Source of the DNA: Candidatus Sabulitectum sp.
GTDB lineage: Bacteria; Fermentibacterota; Fermentibacteria; Fermentibacterales; JCC-6
Length of the DNA stretch: 64,000 nt
Direction: 5' to 3'
Assembly (NCBI GenBank): GCA_023145375.1
Contig: JAGLDY010000012.1
Coordinates: 109,861-173,860, forward strand
The notes below the pieces were generated by a model. That model ran no database searches. It saw only the letters and a program-made list of their open reading frames with translations, and had not been told where the DNA came from. Shown piece after piece: positions 43,571 through 56,778 of this stretch (positions within the stretch are counted from its first letter, which is position 1; every line of letters begins with the position of its first letter). The translations under genes were made by a program, and so were the position numbers.

Positions 43571-43843
43571 GTGTTACATGGAAGGTCCACGGGTTTCTGG
43601 ATTTTCATTGCACTTGCAGGCATGATGACCGGTACTGTTTTCGGTGAGGCCATAGGTGCCATCCTGCCGGATAACTCTGTGGCTCTCAGGCAGTTCTTCA
43701 GCGGAGGGGCTGAGTTCAGTGTTGGACCTATAGGGTTCGATCTTCACATACTCAGACTCCACCTGACTGAGATTGCTGTTAAGCTTAACATCATGACTTT
43801 TGCCGGTCTTCTTGCGGTGGGTGTTCTCTACAAATGGTTCTGA
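43571..43843 (+). CDS. DUF4321-like small membrane protein
   Basis: FIALAGMMTGTVFGEAIGAILP...FDLHILRLHLTEIAVKLNIMTFAGLLAVGVLYKWF. Confidence 0.7.
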   Translation: MLHGRSTGFWIFIALAGMMTGTVFGEAIGAILPDNSVALRQFFSGGAEFSVGPIGFDLHILRLHLTEIAVKLNIMTFAGLLAVGVLYKWF

Positions 43844-43862
43844 CAGCACAAGGGGGTTGATT

Positions 43863-44066
43863 TTGGGCAGGATTGGAACAACGGAACTTATTCTGATTCT
43901 TGTTGTGCTTCTTCTTCTTTTTGGAGCAAAGAGGATACCTGACATTGCCAGAGCCGTGGGTAAATCTATGAATCAATTCAAGAAGGGTCTTCGAGAGGCC
44001 GATGTTAATACTGATGATGACGAAGAAAAAGATGTAAATGATGTAAATAAGGAGAGCGAAGGGTAA
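43863..44066 (+). CDS. tatA: Sec-independent translocase TatA/TatE-like
   Basis: GTTELILILVVLLLLFGAKRIPDIARAVGKSMNQFKKGLREA; TTG start 43863. Confidence 0.9.
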   Translation: MGRIGTTELILILVVLLLLFGAKRIPDIARAVGKSMNQFKKGLREADVNTDDDEEKDVNDVNKESEG

Positions 44067-44073
44067 TCAGCTT

Positions 44074-44676
44074 ATGGCAACAGTTAGTTACAGTGCTAAG
44101 GAAATTGACTGCAAGATAGTCTATGCAGGTCCGGGGTTGTCTGGGAAAACCACAAATGTCAAGTACATTCATGGTCAGGTTGCATCCGATTCAAGAGGGA
44201 AATTGATCTCCCTGGCTGCCGGTAATGACAGAACTCTGTTCTTCGATTTCCTCCCTCTGGATTCCGGTGAGATCAATGGTTTTAAGATCCGTCTTCATCT
44301 TTACAGCGTACCTGGACAGGCAATGTATTCCGATAGTCGCAGACTGATCCTTCAAGGGGTTGATGGACTGGTTTTTGTGGCCGATTCCCAGAAATCAAGG
44401 ATGGACGCCAACATTGCCAGCCTGAGGGATCTGAAGGAAAACCTGCTGGGACAGAAAAGAAAAGGCGTGAGCCTTGTTCTACAGTGCAACAAGCGGGATC
44501 TTCCCGATGCCATTCCAGTATCTGAGATAGTCAAAGAGCTGGGTTTGTCCCGGGTAGCTTGCCTTGATGCCGTTGCATCGGAAGGCAAAGGTGTTTTTGA
44601 AACACTGCGCAGAGTCAGTAGAATGGTAATAGGTAGACTTCACAGACAATTCGAAATACTGGAGGGTAGAGCCTGA
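44074..44676 (+). CDS. MglA-like small Ras-family GTPase
   Basis: KIVYAGPGLSGKTTNVKYIHG; DRTLFFDFLPLDSGEINGFKIRLHLYSVPGQAMY; VLQCNKRDLPDA. Confidence 0.93.
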   Translation: MATVSYSAKEIDCKIVYAGPGLSGKTTNVKYIHGQVASDSRGKLISLAAGNDRTLFFDFLPLDSGEINGFKIRLHLYSVPGQAMYSDSRRLILQGVDGLVFVADSQKSRMDANIASLRDLKENLLGQKRKGVSLVLQCNKRDLPDAIPVSEIVKELGLSRVACLDAVASEGKGVFETLRRVSRMVIGRLHRQFEILEGRA

Positions 44677-46133
44677 TGTCAGATTCACTGGTAGATCTGC
44701 TCCTTGTAAGACTTGGTAAGGAAGACGAAAAAAAGAAAGTCCTCAAACTCCTCATAAGTAATCTAGATCTTTCTGTGACAGATGCCGAAGCTGCTGTAAA
44801 GAATTCTCCTTCAGTAATAAAGGAAGCCGTGCCCATGAATCAGGCAAGGATCTTCCAGAAAGACCTTTACCCTTACATAGATCTATTGCCAAGGCTTGAG
44901 GATGAACCTGTGGTAGAAAAAACTGAAACCGACAGCGCAGCAGCTCCAGTAGTCAAGAAGGAGACCGTTTCAAAGCAGGCTTCTTCTCCTGAAGACGATG
45001 ATGATGACCAGGGTGATCCTGTCAAACTGGAAAATTACAGTAGAGATGCTGATACAGAGAAAGAGATCTCTGAAGATGATAAACCTGATGGTGATAATGA
45101 TGAGCCTGTTTCAATCACCTCAGCCAGCGAAGAGATCAGAGTAACTTCCAGGTGTCATATTTGCGGTAGAACTCCAACTGATGGTGAAAGACTTGCGCCA
45201 TGCAGAACCTGTGGGGAACTAACCTGCCGAAACTGTTTCGACAGAGTTGCCCATGTATGCAATCACTGTGCTGATAAAGGAAAAACAGTCGACAGGGTGA
45301 ACGAGGGGATAGAAAAAGACCATGTAGAAGAACGGCTGGAATTCGATGCCGAAGGGTCTTCGAAAAATAAAAAGAAGAACAGCGGATCCAACGGTCTGCG
45401 CGTAGTCGCTGTTGTTGCTGTTGTTCTTGCACTCTTTGCGGGCTTCTACTTTATGGATCCTCTGGGTATGTTCTCCAGCGACCAAACTGCTGTTGCAACC
45501 GATATAGACACAACAGAGAACGACACACTCAATACCGGCATAACAGAAACCTCTGAGGACTCAACTGATTTAATAGAAGTAGCAACGGACACAGTTGAAA
45601 TTGTGCCGGATCCTTTTATTCTGGAAGAAGATCCTTTCGGTTTACGGTACCTGACCCTTCCTGAAGGACTGGTTCCGGATGAGGATGTAGCTCCATTGAG
45701 TTTCCATCTGACACTTCCAAGGGATGTACACGCAGAAATTCCTGCAGAGGAGAGTGAGATCCTCTTTGACCGGATAGGGATAATCGCTTCTTCAATTCCC
45801 GTGGTTGTTGATGATGGAGTGTTTCTTGTCTATCATGATACCACAAGCGTACTGGTAATGGTTCTTCTTCACCCTGAGGATGCAGGAACTCGAATCAGAC
45901 TTATGCGTGAGATCGCTTCCTGGCTTGCTCCCAGCGAGATCGATCAGATGGTACTCATTTACAGAGAAAATCGCTACCAGAGCGCCGTTCCTTACAGTCT
46001 TCTGAAAGAAGCGTTCCCGAATGTGGAAGGCGTTGTTAGTCCCAGTCAGTTCCAGGGGGTCTTAGGTTACAGCGAAGATTGCTGGGAATCAGTCAGTGGT
46101 CCTGTAACTCAGTGGCTTTCCGATTTGGAATAG
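44676..46133 (+). CDS. Membrane protein: L7/L12-CTD-like segment + acidic linker + 8-Cys zinc module + TM + C-terminal domain
   Basis: EDEKKKVLKLLISNLDLSVTDAEAAVKNSPSVIKEAVPMNQARIFQKDL (L7/L12-CTD-like); CHICGRTPTDGERLAPCRTCGELTCRNCFDRVAHVCNHC; TM VVAVVAVVLALFAGFYFM. Confidence 0.75.
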   Translation: MSDSLVDLLLVRLGKEDEKKKVLKLLISNLDLSVTDAEAAVKNSPSVIKEAVPMNQARIFQKDLYPYIDLLPRLEDEPVVEKTETDSAAAPVVKKETVSKQASSPEDDDDDQGDPVKLENYSRDADTEKEISEDDKPDGDNDEPVSITSASEEIRVTSRCHICGRTPTDGERLAPCRTCGELTCRNCFDRVAHVCNHCADKGKTVDRVNEGIEKDHVEERLEFDAEGSSKNKKKNSGSNGLRVVAVVAVVLALFAGFYFMDPLGMFSSDQTAVATDIDTTENDTLNTGITETSEDSTDLIEVATDTVEIVPDPFILEEDPFGLRYLTLPEGLVPDEDVAPLSFHLTLPRDVHAEIPAEESEILFDRIGIIASSIPVVVDDGVFLVYHDTTSVLVMVLLHPEDAGTRIRLMREIASWLAPSEIDQMVLIYRENRYQSAVPYSLLKEAFPNVEGVVSPSQFQGVLGYSEDCWESVSGPVTQWLSDLE

Positions 46134-46163: not shown

Positions 46164-48356
46164 ATGCCAAAAAATTCTGATAGAAAACTTGTTATCATAG
46201 AGTCCCCGGCCAAAGCCAAGAGTTTAAAAAACTACCTGGGTAAGGGCTGGGATGTTGTTGCATCCTATGGTCATGTAAGAGATCTTCCCCTTAATCGTAT
46301 CGGGGTTAACAGTGAGACTCTTGAACCTACCTATACTGTTCTGCCCCAGAAAAGAGCTGCAGTAGCCAAACTCAGGAAGATAGCTTCCGGCTACAAGCAT
46401 GTATATCTTGCAGCAGACCCTGACCGGGAAGGTGAGGCCATCTGCTGGCACATCTACAAACTTCTTCTTGGCAAGGGTATCTCCTTCAAAAGGATCAGGT
46501 TCAATTCCATAACCAGAGAAGCCATTAGAGCAGCTTCAACTGCAGCAACAGACATTGATATGGATCTTGTTGATGCACAGCAGGCTCGTCGAGTAATGGA
46601 TCGCCTTGTAGGATATAAGATCAGTCCATACCTCTGGCGAACCGTAGGGAAGGGATTAAGTGCAGGAAGGGTGCAAACTGTTGCATTAAGATTGATCGTG
46701 GAAAGGGAACAGGCCATTAGCAGCTTTGTTCCCAGAGAGTACTGGCCGGTAACTGCAGATTTTTCACAGAATGAGGTTCAGTTCCAAACCAAACTGTTTA
46801 AATTTCATGGAAAGAGATCTGAAGGAGACAAATACTCCCCGGGCAACAAGGAAAAGGCAGACAGTATCCTTGACAGGATCAGAGATGCCCAATGGAACAT
46901 CACTTCTGTAGACGATAAGGAAAAGACCAGGAAGCCCGTTCCTCCATTTATAACCAGCTCTCTTCAAGTTGCCGCATCCGGCCGGTTGTCTATGCCACCT
47001 TCGGTTACAATGAGGATAGCTCAGGACCTTTATGAAGGTTTTGTTGTGGATGGAGAAACCACCGGTCTTATCACCTACATGCGTACAGATTCAGTTCGTA
47101 TAGAACCTGTAGCTACCCAGGAATGCCGCAGTTTCATTGCAGAAAAATGGGGCAATAAAAAACTCTCACCAAAGCCAAGAAGATACAGGTCAAGCGGTGG
47201 TGCGCAGGATGCTCATGAGGCAATAAGACCCACAGATGTAAAAAGAACACCTGATTTAATGACGGGGATTCTCGACGCAAGACACCTGAAGCTCTATTCT
47301 CTTATCTGGAACCGGTTCGTTGCCACTCAGATGGCTGATGCTGTCGTAGCTGAAACGGTTGTACTGGTCTCGGGAGCAGATGCCATTTTCAAAGCCGCGG
47401 GGCAAAAGATAAAAGAGCCCGGGTTTTCCATTGTTGACCCCGGACAGCTAAAGGTGAACAGCGAGATCCCGGCTCTTGTTCAGGGTCCTGTTGCCCTTGA
47501 TAAAATTTCAGCAGAGCAGAAATTCACAAAACCACTGCCACGGTATTCCGAAGCAGCACTTGTCTCTGAAATGAAGAAGAAATCCATTGGTAGACCTTCC
47601 ACCTATGTTTCTATCATTGCAACACTTAAGAAACGCAGTTACGTAGAACTCAAGGATAAAAAACTTGTTCCCACCGAGGTTGGCACAGTTACAACAGATC
47701 TTCTTGTTCGGCTTTTCCCGCACCTTTTCGATATTGGATTCACAGCCAGACTGGAGGAACTGCTTGATCTAGTGGCTTCCGGTAAAAAATCCTACAGAGA
47801 AGCGGTAACTCAGCTTTACACACCTCTCGCAGCTTCACTGGAAGAGGCAATGAGGCGCCTGCCCGAGATAAAAGCTTCAATGGTGAAGGAAACAACCGAA
47901 AAATGCCCGGTTTGCGGAAAGCCTCTCCTTGAAAAGATGAGCAAATTCGGGAAATTCCTTGCATGCAGCGGATTCCCCGGGTGTACATACACCCGACCTC
48001 TGGAGGAAAAGGAAGATGCAGTAACCTCAGATGTTAAGTGTTCAAAATGCGGTAAGGACATGTTGCTGCGAAAAGGTCGATACGGTAGATATCTTTCCTG
48101 TTCCAACCCATCGTGTTCTCATACACAACCTGTTCCAGTAGGCGTTCCATGCCCTGTGGAGAAGTGTACCGGAGAACTGGTTGAAAGGAAGTCACGGAAG
48201 GGCAAATTGTTCTATTCCTGTAGCAGATACCCGGACTGTGATTTTGCCATGTGGAACAAACCTATAGCGAGAGAATGTCCCAGATGCGGATTCCCTCTAC
48301 TGGAGGAGAGAAAGAAAGGGGTGTTCTGTCCCAGTTGCAAGAAGAAGATAGATTGA
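46164..48356 (+). CDS. topA: DNA topoisomerase I
   Basis: LVIIESPAKAKSLKNYLGKGWDVVASYGHVRDLP; AADPDREGEAICWHI; GLITYMRTDS; three C-terminal CxxC zinc ribbons. Confidence 0.97.
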   Translation: MPKNSDRKLVIIESPAKAKSLKNYLGKGWDVVASYGHVRDLPLNRIGVNSETLEPTYTVLPQKRAAVAKLRKIASGYKHVYLAADPDREGEAICWHIYKLLLGKGISFKRIRFNSITREAIRAASTAATDIDMDLVDAQQARRVMDRLVGYKISPYLWRTVGKGLSAGRVQTVALRLIVEREQAISSFVPREYWPVTADFSQNEVQFQTKLFKFHGKRSEGDKYSPGNKEKADSILDRIRDAQWNITSVDDKEKTRKPVPPFITSSLQVAASGRLSMPPSVTMRIAQDLYEGFVVDGETTGLITYMRTDSVRIEPVATQECRSFIAEKWGNKKLSPKPRRYRSSGGAQDAHEAIRPTDVKRTPDLMTGILDARHLKLYSLIWNRFVATQMADAVVAETVVLVSGADAIFKAAGQKIKEPGFSIVDPGQLKVNSEIPALVQGPVALDKISAEQKFTKPLPRYSEAALVSEMKKKSIGRPSTYVSIIATLKKRSYVELKDKKLVPTEVGTVTTDLLVRLFPHLFDIGFTARLEELLDLVASGKKSYREAVTQLYTPLAASLEEAMRRLPEIKASMVKETTEKCPVCGKPLLEKMSKFGKFLACSGFPGCTYTRPLEEKEDAVTSDVKCSKCGKDMLLRKGRYGRYLSCSNPSCSHTQPVPVGVPCPVEKCTGELVERKSRKGKLFYSCSRYPDCDFAMWNKPIARECPRCGFPLLEERKKGVFCPSCKKKID

Positions 48357-52167: not shown

Positions 52168-52182
52168 TAGTTGGAGGAGCAT

Positions 52183-52731
52183 ATGGATATAAGATCAACA
52201 ACAGTTATTGGAATAGTGAAGAATGGCAAGGCGGCCATGGCTGCAGACGGCCAGGTAACCATAGGTGACACCATAATGAAAATGAGTGCTAAAAAACTCA
52301 GAAAGCTATGTGGCGGAACGGTGCTTGTAGGGTTCTCCGGTACAGGAGCTGATGCTTTTACGCTTGTCGAAAGACTTGAGGAAAAACTGGATGCATTCCG
52401 AGGAAATCTTCCCAGAGCCTGCGTGGAACTGGCCAGGGAATGGAGGGCTGATAAATACCTCCGGGAATTGAATGCAATGCTTGCTGCAGTGGACAGCCGG
52501 CATGCTTTGATAATTGGTGGTTCCGGTGAGGTAGTGGAATCCCCGGACGGCATTGTTTCCGTAGGCTCCGGATCACCCTATGCTATCTCTGCGGCAAGAG
52601 CTCTTATGAAACACACAAGAATGGGACCACTGAAACTTGCCCGGGAGTCCATTACAATAGCAAGTGGTATATGCATCTATACTGGGGGAAGCCTGCAGTC
52701 GGAGGAGATATGCGAAAAAAGAAGATCATGA
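52183..52731 (+). CDS. hslV: ATP-dependent protease subunit HslV
   Basis: RSTTVIGIVKNGKAAMAADGQVTIGDTIMKMSAKKLRKL; start ATG 52183 after GGAGGAG. Confidence 0.96.
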   Translation: MDIRSTTVIGIVKNGKAAMAADGQVTIGDTIMKMSAKKLRKLCGGTVLVGFSGTGADAFTLVERLEEKLDAFRGNLPRACVELAREWRADKYLRELNAMLAAVDSRHALIIGGSGEVVESPDGIVSVGSGSPYAISAARALMKHTRMGPLKLARESITIASGICIYTGGSLQSEEICEKRRS

Positions 52732-54029
52732 CACCGGCAGAAACTGTGAATTGGCTTAACCGGCATGTTATCGGGCAGGATCAAGCCAAGAGAACAGTTT
52801 CCATCGCCCTGAGAAACAGATACAGAAGAAAACAAGTACAAGAGCCCATGCAGTCTGAGATATATCCCAGTAATCTTATCATGATGGGACCAACCGGGGT
52901 AGGGAAGACAGAAATTGCCCGTCGGATGGCCAATCTTGTGGGAGCCCCCTTCGTAAAAGTTGAAGCCAGCAAGTACACTGAAACAGGTTATGTGGGCAGA
53001 GATGTGGAAGGCATTATTAGAGATCTTGTCCGCTCGGCGGTTAACCTCGCCACCAGCAGTGCCAGAGAAGAAAAAAGTGAAGAAGTGCGCACCAGAGTAA
53101 ACAAAAGGCTACTGGATGCTCTTTCCAAAACCGGTGTCGATTACGGGTCATCCGGAGAACTTGCTGACTTACTGGATCAAGGCAGGCTTGATCCCATTGA
53201 GATAGAGCTTTCGGTCACAGAGCAGGCTATTGGTGTAGAAGTATTCCCAATGATACCGGGTCAGGGATTCGATAATCAGATAAATGACCAGATGAAAAAA
53301 ATGCTGGACAAGGTCATAGGAAAGAGGCGAAAAAAGATAACGCTTCCAGTATCGGAAGCCAGAAAAAAGATCTTTGATGACGAGATGGCCAGAGTACTGG
53401 ACGGGGGAGACCATATCCAGGAAGGGCTGAAACTTGCCCAGGAAGAAGGCATCGTTTTCATTGACGAGATCGATAAGATAATCGGGTCTGAGGGCGGGAG
53501 TGGACCGGATGTCTCCAGAATGGGAGTTCAGAGAGATCTTCTACCACTGGTAGAAGGAAGTACCGTCGGAACCAGATACGGGCCTGTAAAAACCGATCAT
53601 ATTCTCTTTATTGCTGCCGGTGCCTTTCATGGAAGCAGCCCTGCTGACCTGATCCCTGAGCTTCAGGGAAGATTTCCACTTCGAGTTTCTCTTGACCCGC
53701 TTTCAGAAGATGATCTTCTCCGGATACTCACAGAGCCTGAAAGTTGCGTACTTGACCAGTACGTGCAACTTCTTGCAGCAGACGGGCTGGAACTGATCGT
53801 AGAGGATCAGGCGAAAAGAAAGATTGCATCTACAGCCAGGTTCCTGAATGAGGAGAAGGAAGATATTGGAGCCCGGCGTTTACGGTCCGTTCTCTCATTC
53901 CTTCTGGATGAATATCTATTCGGTGCCCCTGATATTATAAAGGGGAAAGTCAGGCTGACAGGAAAGAAGGCCACTTACAGACTTGGTACACTGGTTGAAA
54001 GAAAGAGCGAAGAGGGTTATATTCTTTAA
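52710..54029 (+). CDS. hslU: ATP-dependent protease ATPase subunit HslU
   Basis: MTPAETVNWLNRHVIGQDQAKRTVSIALRNRYRR; GPTGVGKTEIARR; GIVFIDEIDKI. Confidence 0.97.
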   Translation: MRKKKIMTPAETVNWLNRHVIGQDQAKRTVSIALRNRYRRKQVQEPMQSEIYPSNLIMMGPTGVGKTEIARRMANLVGAPFVKVEASKYTETGYVGRDVEGIIRDLVRSAVNLATSSAREEKSEEVRTRVNKRLLDALSKTGVDYGSSGELADLLDQGRLDPIEIELSVTEQAIGVEVFPMIPGQGFDNQINDQMKKMLDKVIGKRRKKITLPVSEARKKIFDDEMARVLDGGDHIQEGLKLAQEEGIVFIDEIDKIIGSEGGSGPDVSRMGVQRDLLPLVEGSTVGTRYGPVKTDHILFIAAGAFHGSSPADLIPELQGRFPLRVSLDPLSEDDLLRILTEPESCVLDQYVQLLAADGLELIVEDQAKRKIASTARFLNEEKEDIGARRLRSVLSFLLDEYLFGAPDIIKGKVRLTGKKATYRLGTLVERKSEEGYIL

Positions 54030-54074: not shown

Positions 54075-54653
54075 ATGCACAGATCAGGTAACGAAGTTGC
54101 TTACAAAATTGTCTACTATGGTCCTGGTCTTTCAGGGAAAACAACTAACCTGAGGGGCATTCGTGATATCATAGCTCCAGAGAACAGAGGAAGACTGGTT
54201 ACCCTTTGCACAAGGTGCGAGAGGACTGTTTTCTTTGACTTTCTCCCTGTGAATTTCGCAAGGATCGGAGACATGCAGGTTAAGCTTCACCTGTACTCTG
54301 TTCCCGGTCAGGCATACTACGCTCTCAGTCGAAGGGTTATCCTTGACGGAATTGACGGTATCGTTTTCGTTGCCGACAGCCAGAAAGAAAGAGCAGAGGC
54401 TAATCTCAGCACCATAGATGACCTTGAACACAACTTGAAGAGCTATGGCCTGGATATGTCCACGATCCCAATGGTTCTTCAATTCAACAAGAGAGATCTG
54501 CCCGGAATAATGTCCACAAGCAGAATGAATACTGATCTGAACAAGTTCGACTGGCCCACTGTAGAGTCAGTGGCCATTGGCGGAACCGGTCCCGCGGAGA
54601 CTCTTAAGATCATAGCCACACATATTGCCAAGCGCCATGCGCGCACAGGCTGA
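54075..54653 (+). CDS. Second MglA-like small GTPase
   Basis: KIVYYGPGLSGKTTNLRGIRD; ERTVFFDFLPVNFARIGDMQVKLHLYSVPGQAYY; VLQFNKRDLPG. Confidence 0.93.
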   Translation: MHRSGNEVAYKIVYYGPGLSGKTTNLRGIRDIIAPENRGRLVTLCTRCERTVFFDFLPVNFARIGDMQVKLHLYSVPGQAYYALSRRVILDGIDGIVFVADSQKERAEANLSTIDDLEHNLKSYGLDMSTIPMVLQFNKRDLPGIMSTSRMNTDLNKFDWPTVESVAIGGTGPAETLKIIATHIAKRHARTG

Positions 54654-56778
54654 TACCAGAAATCTCTTAACAGTTTCTTTCCTCCTGCTGTTCCTTATTG
54701 CAGGAGGGTACGTCTTTCGAACTGTCTTTGCGCAGATCGTAATGCCTCCTCCTGCAAGGATGCAGGGAGAAACAACCCAGGCCTACAGGTACACCAGGAT
54801 GGTCTCACAAGGCCATGGGATACCTGCTGTGGATTACCTCGTCATGCGCCCCGAGGGTATGGTAACATCAGAGAACTCTATTTTTGAGGAGTATATAACA
54901 GGGGGAATTCATAGATTGCTCGGAGGGGACTTGAACAGCTTCCTTGTATTGTTTTGTCGTCTTTTCCCTCTGTTCACCGTGCCGGTGATCTTCCTGTGGA
55001 TGCGCAACTCAACTTTCTCTATTGGTGAATCTCTTTCCGGCGCCGGACTTTATGCAGTTTTCCTTCCAGCTCTTCTCAGAACCAGAGGAGAAAGTCTTTA
55101 CAGAGAGACTGTGGCCCTGCCACTTATTACACTGACCCTTGCACTTACCGACATGGGTATACGAAGCGAAAAGAAAAATACTCTTAAATACACTGTTTCT
55201 GCGGCTATAGTTCTGTTTCTTGCACTTGCATCCTGGAAAGTCACCGGATTCATATCTTTCTTTCTTTTCACATGGCTGGCTTTCAGAAAGCCCGGGATCC
55301 GTGCGGTTCTTCCTCTGGCAATAAGCCAGCTGGCTGCTTCTCTATTCCTGGCCCACATGCGTCATGAAGGAGCGATTCTTTCTCCAGGCAGTATCATGGC
55401 TGTTGCAGCTGTTGTTTCATCGGCGTTTCACCACAGGGTGCTTCCATGGACAGGACTAATTGGGTCTCTTGCTACTGGAGCATTTATTCGTTCTTCGTCA
55501 TCAGGACATGTTGCTTCGGTAATTGCAGCGAAATTGAGATTTTTCTTCAGTCATCCTGAAGACCCATCCCTTCTTTCAGGCGACGCCCGTCTTTTCTGGG
55601 TAAGCGGGTATACCACTCCTTCAATCGGGCAGATCATTCTGCTTTTCGGTATTGCAATTGCTATGGCCTTGTGGGGATGGAAACCATTCCGTAAAAAAAC
55701 CGGCAGTTCCGCCATGTTCTTTTTTCTACCACTCTCCTTTGCGGGATATCTCTTCTTTGACAGACTTCATGTGCTTCTTGCAATCGGTATCATTCCTGCG
55801 GTAATTGCTGCTTCCCGAGGTCGCAGGTGGATGCTTCCGGTGATTCTTGCTGTTTTTGGACTTCAATCCATGTTTTCCCCGGGGCTTGTTACAATGCTTG
55901 CTTCCGCCGGTATTCACCTGGAGGATTCTTCCTCTCTTCTTGCAGATCCAGAACTGGATGACCTGATAGACTGGGCAGAAGGAAAGCAGGGAACCATGCT
56001 GTCTTTCTGGCATATTTCCGGACTGCTTTCCGCATACGCCGGGATGCCTGTGGTCACCCACACATTTTTTGAGAACAACAAGAACCGTGAAACAATTATC
56101 AGGTTTGCTGAATTGATGTACGGCACAGAAGAGGAAATGATAGGCTTCATGGAGGAAAAGGAAGCAGATTATCTTGCTTATCAGGCAGATTTCATTTTCG
56201 ACAGAACCCCCCAGGGACTTCTATATCTTGCAGGTTTAAAAGACATTGCTGACGGTTCTCTCGCAATAGGGCTTCACTACTACCCCCATTCTCTTGAAAG
56301 GCTTAAGATCGTCTGGCAGGGACCGTCCATCAGAGTATTTCAGCTTGATGGAGATTCATCCCATGTGAACAGGCAACCCCTCTGGGAAACCCGTTATGCT
56401 TCCTTCCTTCACGACAGAGATCTGGCAGGATTTGTTGTAAACTCCCCGGTTGAGGCCGGCATCCTTCTTGCCGATCAGGGAATCAACTCCGGGGAGCTGG
56501 AAAAGATATCCGCCGCTCTCCTGATCTTCTCAAATTTCAAGAACGATGTACCTTCAGACGCAGCTATCGGCCTTCTGCAGGAGCTTCTCATCAACCATCT
56601 TAATGGTGAATATCCTATTGAGTTCCTTGAAGAAGATTTTATCAGCTACCTTGAAGCCTGGGGGCCTGATCCCCAGATCCGTCTTGACCTGGTGAGACTT
56701 CTCAGAGCAGAAGACCTTACTGAAAGAGCAGAATATCACATGCAGATAATAGAAAGATCCGGAAGAAGCAGTCCATGA
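54637..56778 (+). CDS. Polytopic membrane protein, STT3/GT-C-like
   Basis: GETTQAYRYTRMVSQGHGIPAVDYLVMRPEG, RLFPLFTVPVIFL, ALLRTRGESLYRETVALPLITLTLALTD; about 10 TM then soluble C-terminus. Confidence 0.6.
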   Translation: MRAQADTRNLLTVSFLLLFLIAGGYVFRTVFAQIVMPPPARMQGETTQAYRYTRMVSQGHGIPAVDYLVMRPEGMVTSENSIFEEYITGGIHRLLGGDLNSFLVLFCRLFPLFTVPVIFLWMRNSTFSIGESLSGAGLYAVFLPALLRTRGESLYRETVALPLITLTLALTDMGIRSEKKNTLKYTVSAAIVLFLALASWKVTGFISFFLFTWLAFRKPGIRAVLPLAISQLAASLFLAHMRHEGAILSPGSIMAVAAVVSSAFHHRVLPWTGLIGSLATGAFIRSSSSGHVASVIAAKLRFFFSHPEDPSLLSGDARLFWVSGYTTPSIGQIILLFGIAIAMALWGWKPFRKKTGSSAMFFFLPLSFAGYLFFDRLHVLLAIGIIPAVIAASRGRRWMLPVILAVFGLQSMFSPGLVTMLASAGIHLEDSSSLLADPELDDLIDWAEGKQGTMLSFWHISGLLSAYAGMPVVTHTFFENNKNRETIIRFAELMYGTEEEMIGFMEEKEADYLAYQADFIFDRTPQGLLYLAGLKDIADGSLAIGLHYYPHSLERLKIVWQGPSIRVFQLDGDSSHVNRQPLWETRYASFLHDRDLAGFVVNSPVEAGILLADQGINSGELEKISAALLIFSNFKNDVPSDAAIGLLQELLINHLNGEYPIEFLEEDFISYLEAWGPDPQIRLDLVRLLRAEDLTERAEYHMQIIERSGRSSP

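Follow-up and report, generated by a model that had tools for sequence, protein, structure and literature searches.

MglA GTPases control the polarity and motility of cells, and are rarely discussed apart from MglB. The locus described here raises the question of what such a GTPase may work with when the gene beside it encodes a membrane protein instead of an MglB. It lies in a 64,000-nucleotide stretch of DNA (the window) taken from a 242-kb contig of the draft genome of Candidatus Sabulitectum sp., phylum Fermentibacterota (2.6 Mb, 145 contigs, 92% complete). The first gene (44074..44676, + strand) encodes MglA paralogue A (MglA-A), a small Ras-like GTPase of 200 amino acids and of the Group 1 type. 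The second (44676..46133, + strand) encodes a single-pass membrane protein of 485 amino acids, made up of an L12-like domain (the N-domain), a zinc module, a transmembrane (TM) helix and a C-terminal domain (the C-domain), which is a candidate dedicated partner of MglA-A. The positions of both reading frames in the earlier note, and their overlap at 44676, are exact, given that the A of the MglA stop codon TGA (44674-44676) is also the A of the next ATG (44676-44678), the one base common to both genes. A plasmid search returned no match, and a scan for promoters and terminators found nothing beyond the level of shuffles.

MglA-A is assigned to the MglA GTPases by its sequence. In phmmer searches it matched the MglA entries of the PDB with E-values ranging from 5e-64 (3t12) to 7e-63, far above those of the Arf and Ras proteins, and the MglA of Myxococcus xanthus with an E-value of 6e-63. 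The Mgl-type active site is kept, with Arg53 beside Thr54, SVPGQ at G3, and NKRD at G4. The R53-T54 pair, that is, the intrinsic arginine beside the G2 threonine that defines Group 1, is conserved in clade A, where G3 reads SVPGQ throughout, one conservative change from the TVPGQ of Group 1. The same genome encodes three MglA proteins, A, B (54075-54653 in the window) and C (on contig 92), each of which falls into a single clade of the tree with 100% support (100/98 for clade A). MglA-B, directly 3' of hslVU (52171-54029), also carries SVPGQ, has no MglB nearby, and keeps its place approximately 10 kb from MglA-A in many genomes of the phylum. A 717-aa membrane protein encoded at 54625-56778 resembles a glycosyltransferase by eye, with no Pfam match at 0.01.

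No MglB (roadblock) gene lies within four genes of MglA-A. In its own genome, roadblock genes were found only on contig 92, where MglA-C alone has MglB neighbors, accompanied by a DUF4388 protein and a DnaA-like ATPase. This canonical-looking locus (L041:7061-10846) reads roadblock, MglA-C, DUF4388 protein, DnaA-type AAA ATPase and roadblock, and the presence of a DnaA-like ATPase within an MglAB operon is unusual. Across the phylum, MglB is present in 27 of the 42 genomes (16 of the 24 of good quality), no roadblock gene being found in the other 15, and MglA-A persists in genomes that have no MglB. The well-covered genomes of this kind (G004, G005, G011, G012, G014, G028, G029 and G041) each have only two MglA genes. 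Outside the phylum, 19 of the 20 closest MglA homologues have MglB directly upstream, and an L12-like, TatA or TopA neighbor is found beside none of the 20.

Clade A is separated from the MglAs outside the phylum by 18 fixed differences, 10 of which, by plain count, fall in beta0, beta2, switch II/G3 or alpha5. These are A2, V4 and S5 (the last two in beta0), G50 (beta2), S78, A83, M84 and D87 (G3/switch II), and R179 and R183 (alpha5), the assignment of residues to elements in MglA-A having been made in this analysis. In the M. xanthus complex, MglB contacts beta0, the switch loops, and a pocket formed by alpha5 and beta2-beta3 (PMC11016934). Position 78 is a serine in the MglB-uncoupled clades A and B, and a threonine in the MglB-coupled clade C and in all the outside MglAs, a pattern of residues by which Ser78 may be a marker of MglB independence.

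The 485-aa protein is encoded with open frames in 40 of the 42 Fermentibacterota genomes, including all 24 of good quality, and is therefore more than a chance reading frame. The two genomes that lack a match are G018, which is 61% complete, and G006, in which the contig stops 14 bases past the MglA match. MglA-A is present in 38 of the 42 genomes, one copy being partial, and in G023, G026 and G034, where it was not found, the gene of the 485-aa protein is itself cut by the end of the contig. In none of the 42 genomes are the two genes apart where the contig is continuous. A full-length match was found in none of the 343 sampled genomes of other phyla, where the N-domain matches inspected were bL12 genes, except for one Zn-ribbon/L12 protein. 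The mean pairwise identity is 66% in the N-domain, 71% in the zinc module, 42% in the C-domain, and 23-28% in the linkers, against 80% in MglA-A, and the modules predicted to be cytoplasmic are thus the most conserved parts of the protein, as would fit a conserved partner in the cytoplasm. Almost every genome of the phylum encodes PilT. In G014 (98% complete), no match exceeded the PilT cut-off, and MglB and MglA-C are also absent, while MglA-A and the 485-aa protein are both kept; on the weak evidence of this one genome, a role restricted to twitching by type IV pili is unlikely.

The conserved linkage to MglA that the earlier note called for is found in all 35 loci that span both genes, the gene of the 485-aa protein lying directly 3' of mglA-A in each. 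The gap between the two measures -8 to +2 nt in 33 loci (-1 or +1 nt in 30 of these) and +85 nt in the other two. In the loci with flanks, the gene order is heptaprenyl-diP synthase I, DUF4321, tatA, mglA, the gene of the 485-aa protein, and topA. In the window, the TatA/Hcf106-family gene directly 5' of mglA occupies 43800..44066 (+ strand; PF02416, 1.3e-18) and topA, the next gene 3' of the pair, 46164..48356 (+ strand; PF01131, 6.8e-113). The called start of an xerC-like reading frame lies approximately 105 nt inside the end of topA (48251-48356), and the true start is probably further in. The gap between tatA and mglA-A is -14 to +7 nt in 32 of the 35 loci, and topA begins 30-82 nt past the gene of the 485-aa protein in every locus measured, so the tight unit consists of tatA, mglA and the gene of the 485-aa protein. 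Since tatA lies as close to its neighbor as mglA does, adjacency alone cannot tell whether the partner is MglA, TatA or both.

This arrangement also agrees with the strongest of the alternatives, in which the genes are operon neighbors only, and the 485-aa protein, a membrane protein of general envelope or stress function, is co-transcribed with tatA, mglA and topA but works independently of MglA. The wider gene order is conserved as well, housekeeping genes included, and proteins that combine L12-like, zinc and TM elements exist elsewhere without MglA, as at the locus L084 described below. Even so, the gap between mglA and its neighbor stays close to zero across families, while that before topA is larger, and the same lineage has lost its MglB linkage, which leaves this alternative a rather unlikely one.

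The proposal that the 485-aa protein begins with a domain like the C-terminal domain (CTD) of ribosomal L7/L12 was upheld by structure prediction, profile comparison and reciprocal searches. The N-domain (residues 5-75; 44688..44900, + strand) is matched by Pfam Ribosomal_L12 (PF00542) over residues 16-64 with an E-value of 5e-4 and 20.7 bits, under the gathering score of 25.9, and 19 of 28 homologues match the same family at E<=0.1 (best 1.1e-5). The domain is thus related to PF00542 in sequence but not a formal member, as it falls below the curated cut-off. Its profile recovers E. coli L7/L12 as the best PDB sequence (E 0.015) and, in the reverse direction, genuine bL12 genes in other genomes, with E-values down to 3.5e-7 per genome, while hhalign aligns it to a bL12 alignment at 93% (P 4.6e-8), compared with 0.06% for an unrelated control. 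AlphaFold2 predicted the L7/L12 topology, beta-alpha-alpha-beta-alpha-beta, in two runs with a pLDDT of approximately 85 (E5-10, H16-30, H34-42, E46-53, H54-64, E68-72). In Foldseek searches of the PDB, L7/L12 structures occupied the top 12 places, followed by ClpS, and the best match was the E. coli structure 1ctf (prob 1.00, TMt 0.81, rmsd 1.6 A); the modest E-values (5e-3) are in line with a domain of only 77 residues. It is the agreement of several methods on which the L7/L12 assignment rests.

The N-domain is not, for all that, a ribosomal bL12, as it opens the sequence of a membrane protein, with none of the N-terminal dimerization domain and hinge that bL12 has, and scores 12.7 bits against TIGR00855, where 84.4 are required. 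Two family-specific motifs are invariant, VDLLLVR in the first strand and YP[YF]xDLLPR in the last one. The residues K70, R73 and K84, which we take to be the numbers of the basic GTPase-binding positions of L12, are not conserved here, R73 being replaced by I, V or M in 20 of 20 sequences, and K70 and K84 being mixed with acidic residues, in a domain with a net charge of -1 to -6. In L12 CTDs, a conserved basic site formed by helices 4 and 5 meets the G4-G5 helix of the translational GTPases that they bind (PMC6753160), and the G4-G5 helix of MglA-A is variable. Docking of the N-domain on MglA-A in the manner of L12 is thus unsupported, and any binding of MglA-A needs another surface, for which the invariant VDLLLVR/YPxxDLLPR patch and the zinc module are candidates. 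The same substitutions and the same charge argue against a translation-linked tether, in which the L12-like domain would recruit EF-Tu, EF-G or IF2 to the membrane in the fashion of the ribosomal stalk, and which we regard as improbable, although the fold is real and the homology detectable in the sequence. Still less credible is a ClpS-like adaptor that passes substrates to a protease: ClpS is the second family among the Foldseek matches, and hslVU is encoded 6 kb downstream, but the L7/L12 structures come ahead of those of ClpS and have the higher identity, and no ClpS family of Pfam matches the sequence.

An acidic, low-complexity linker follows the N-domain, as the earlier note described (residues 76-150; 44901..45125, + strand; 34% D/E, mostly with pLDDT < 50), and leads into the eight-cysteine zinc module (residues 157-200; 45144..45275, + strand). 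The cysteine spacing given in the earlier note, CxxC-x12-CxxC-x4-CxxC-x7-CxxC, is exact and is that of the four CxxC knuckles of a FYVE cross-brace (a treble clef), and all eight cysteines are kept in 28 of 28 homologues. The likeness to FYVE domains, one of the types that the note named for the spacing, does not extend to family membership, given that the Pfam FYVE match is not significant (E 0.17, 12.5 bits against 27.8). Foldseek paired the predicted module with the FYVE domain 1vfy (prob 0.95) and with rabphilin from its complex with Rab3A (0.66), the E-values of the two matches being poor. The term is limited here to FYVE-like spacing, which the predicted fold weakly reflects. A similar eight-cysteine module occurs in other surroundings in short membrane proteins of second-family genomes (L127, L128 and L129), and the module is thus common to several proteins within the Fermentibacterota.

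The single TM helix that had been proposed corresponds to one strong segment (residues 240-262; 45393..45461, + strand), evident by hydropathy in 31 of 31 sequences, helical in the model, and ending in an invariant Asp-Pro (261-262). The flank on its C-terminal side is net negative in all 31, whereas that on the N-terminal side is positively charged in the second genus and in some others, with a charge close to zero or below in most members of the window's own genus. An N-in topology, with the N-terminus in the cytoplasm, is favored by these sequences, though not settled by charge alone. Beyond the helix, a Thr/Ser/Asp-rich linker, predicted to be periplasmic (45462..45707, + strand; low pLDDT, 28% mean pairwise identity), leads to the C-domain (residues 345-485; 45708..46130, + strand), a predicted periplasmic alpha/beta domain with pLDDT of 80-97. 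The earlier note did not recognize this domain, and it still has no assigned family after profile searches and Foldseek. Its profile recovered a single, chance-level match in the PDB (topoisomerase I, E 0.053). An assignment to the PD-(D/E)XK nucleases was rejected, as the Foldseek matches to this superfamily are weak (prob 0.14-0.6, E > 0.06, low TM-scores), no (D/E)xK is found among the conserved residues, and the domain is predicted to be periplasmic. The helix and strand order of the C-domain loosely resembles that of a roadblock domain, but that it is a degenerate roadblock, and hence a built-in MglB, can be set aside as barely plausible, since hhalign gives 0.06%, equal to the negative control and compared with that control only, no roadblock is found among the Foldseek matches listed, and the membrane is predicted to separate the domain from MglA-A.

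The domain layout, the conserved adjacency, the absence of MglB linkage and the distribution of the family are direct results of the tools applied. The explanation that we consider probable is that of a Fermentibacterota-specific, MglB-independent MglA module, in which the 485-aa protein is the dedicated membrane partner of MglA-A, acting as its effector or regulator. It is favored by the domain anatomy, the constant place of the gene directly 3' of mglA-A at a gap close to zero, the MglB genes beside the closest outside MglAs, the fixed changes of clade A in elements that contact MglB in M. xanthus, the strong conservation of the two cytoplasmic modules, and the presence of the gene in 24 of 24 high-quality genomes, compared with 16 of 24 for MglB. 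Counting against it are the synteny of the whole block from DUF4321 through tatA, mglA and the gene of the 485-aa protein to topA, the weak positive-inside signal in the window's own genus, and the lack of conservation, in the N-domain, of the L12 surface for translational GTPases.

The mechanism that we infer, including direct binding of MglA-A, the topology, the direction of signaling and the process controlled, would run as follows. MglA-A would be a GTP/GDP switch that keeps the Mgl-type active site, and the 485-aa protein a single-pass protein of the inner membrane with its N-terminus in the cytoplasm. The L7/L12-CTD-like head, the zinc module, or both would dock one nucleotide state of MglA-A at the membrane, and the TM helix would connect this docking to the periplasmic C-domain, so that the protein may serve MglA-A either as an effector or receptor at the membrane, or as a regulator in place of MglB. 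A bolder form of this proposal, which we offer only tentatively and regard as doubtful, is that an L7/L12 CTD fold of the ribosomal stalk has become a membrane-anchored dock for a Ras-like GTPase by way of a new surface (VDLLLVR / ARxxQxxxYPxxDLLPR), replacing MglB phylum-wide, and that the MglA switch is thereby coupled to a periplasmic domain on the far side of the membrane.

The closest known system is the MglA/MglB module of M. xanthus and Thermus thermophilus (Group 1, PMC4316618), which has in common with the present locus the GTPase sequence, the intrinsic arginine beside the G2 threonine, VPGQ and NKRD. Here, by contrast, no MglB lies near clade A, G3 is SVPGQ rather than TVPGQ, and the neighbor is a membrane protein with an L12-like domain and a zinc module, with no roadblock. 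MglA family GTPases that are orphans, 59 of 449, include SofG of M. xanthus and the MglA of Bdellovibrio (PMC4316618), and resemble MglA-A in having no coupled MglB, but differ from it in that one dedicated neighbor is found here throughout the phylum. The neighborhoods of the Group 1 Rup GTPases (PMC4316618) also place a small GTPase beside a protein that combines an unknown domain with a single inner-membrane helix and a periplasmic domain, although Rup is another GTPase family, the C-domain there is of the OmpA type that binds peptidoglycan, and no L12-like domain or zinc module is reported.

The Skillet-2 lipocone systems, which are two-gene systems, include single-TM proteins with a cytoplasmic region that contains either a Zn ribbon, or an HTH and a ClpS/L7-L12 domain (PMC12419801). 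The likeness lies in an L12-ClpS domain or a zinc element in the cytoplasmic part of a single-TM protein, but the partner in those systems is a lipocone enzyme, the Zn ribbon and the L12-ClpS domain are alternatives, and the type of zinc module differs. In another phylum, a protein encoded at L084:8331-9173 (minus strand) has a Zn ribbon, two L7/L12 CTDs (PF00542, 7e-26), an acidic linker and a C-terminal TM segment. It has in common with the 485-aa protein a non-ribosomal L12 CTD, a zinc element, an acidic linker and a TM segment, but their order is reversed and there is no periplasmic domain. No MglA was found near it among the reading frames of the 17 kb read. The claim that no protein with the present layout had been described therefore stands for the combination and not for its parts, given that single-TM proteins with a Zn ribbon, an L12/ClpS domain or both have precedent. 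Neither this combination, nor its pairing throughout the phylum with an MglA free of MglB, nor the zinc module appeared in the freely accessible papers searched, and to our knowledge all three are new.

At this locus, a fold best known from the binding of translational GTPases, that of the L7/L12 CTD, stands beside a Ras-like GTPase. An MglA with no linked MglB, encoded beside a TM protein throughout a phylum, represents a testable case of how a bacterial Ras-like switch may gain a new partner and act across a membrane.
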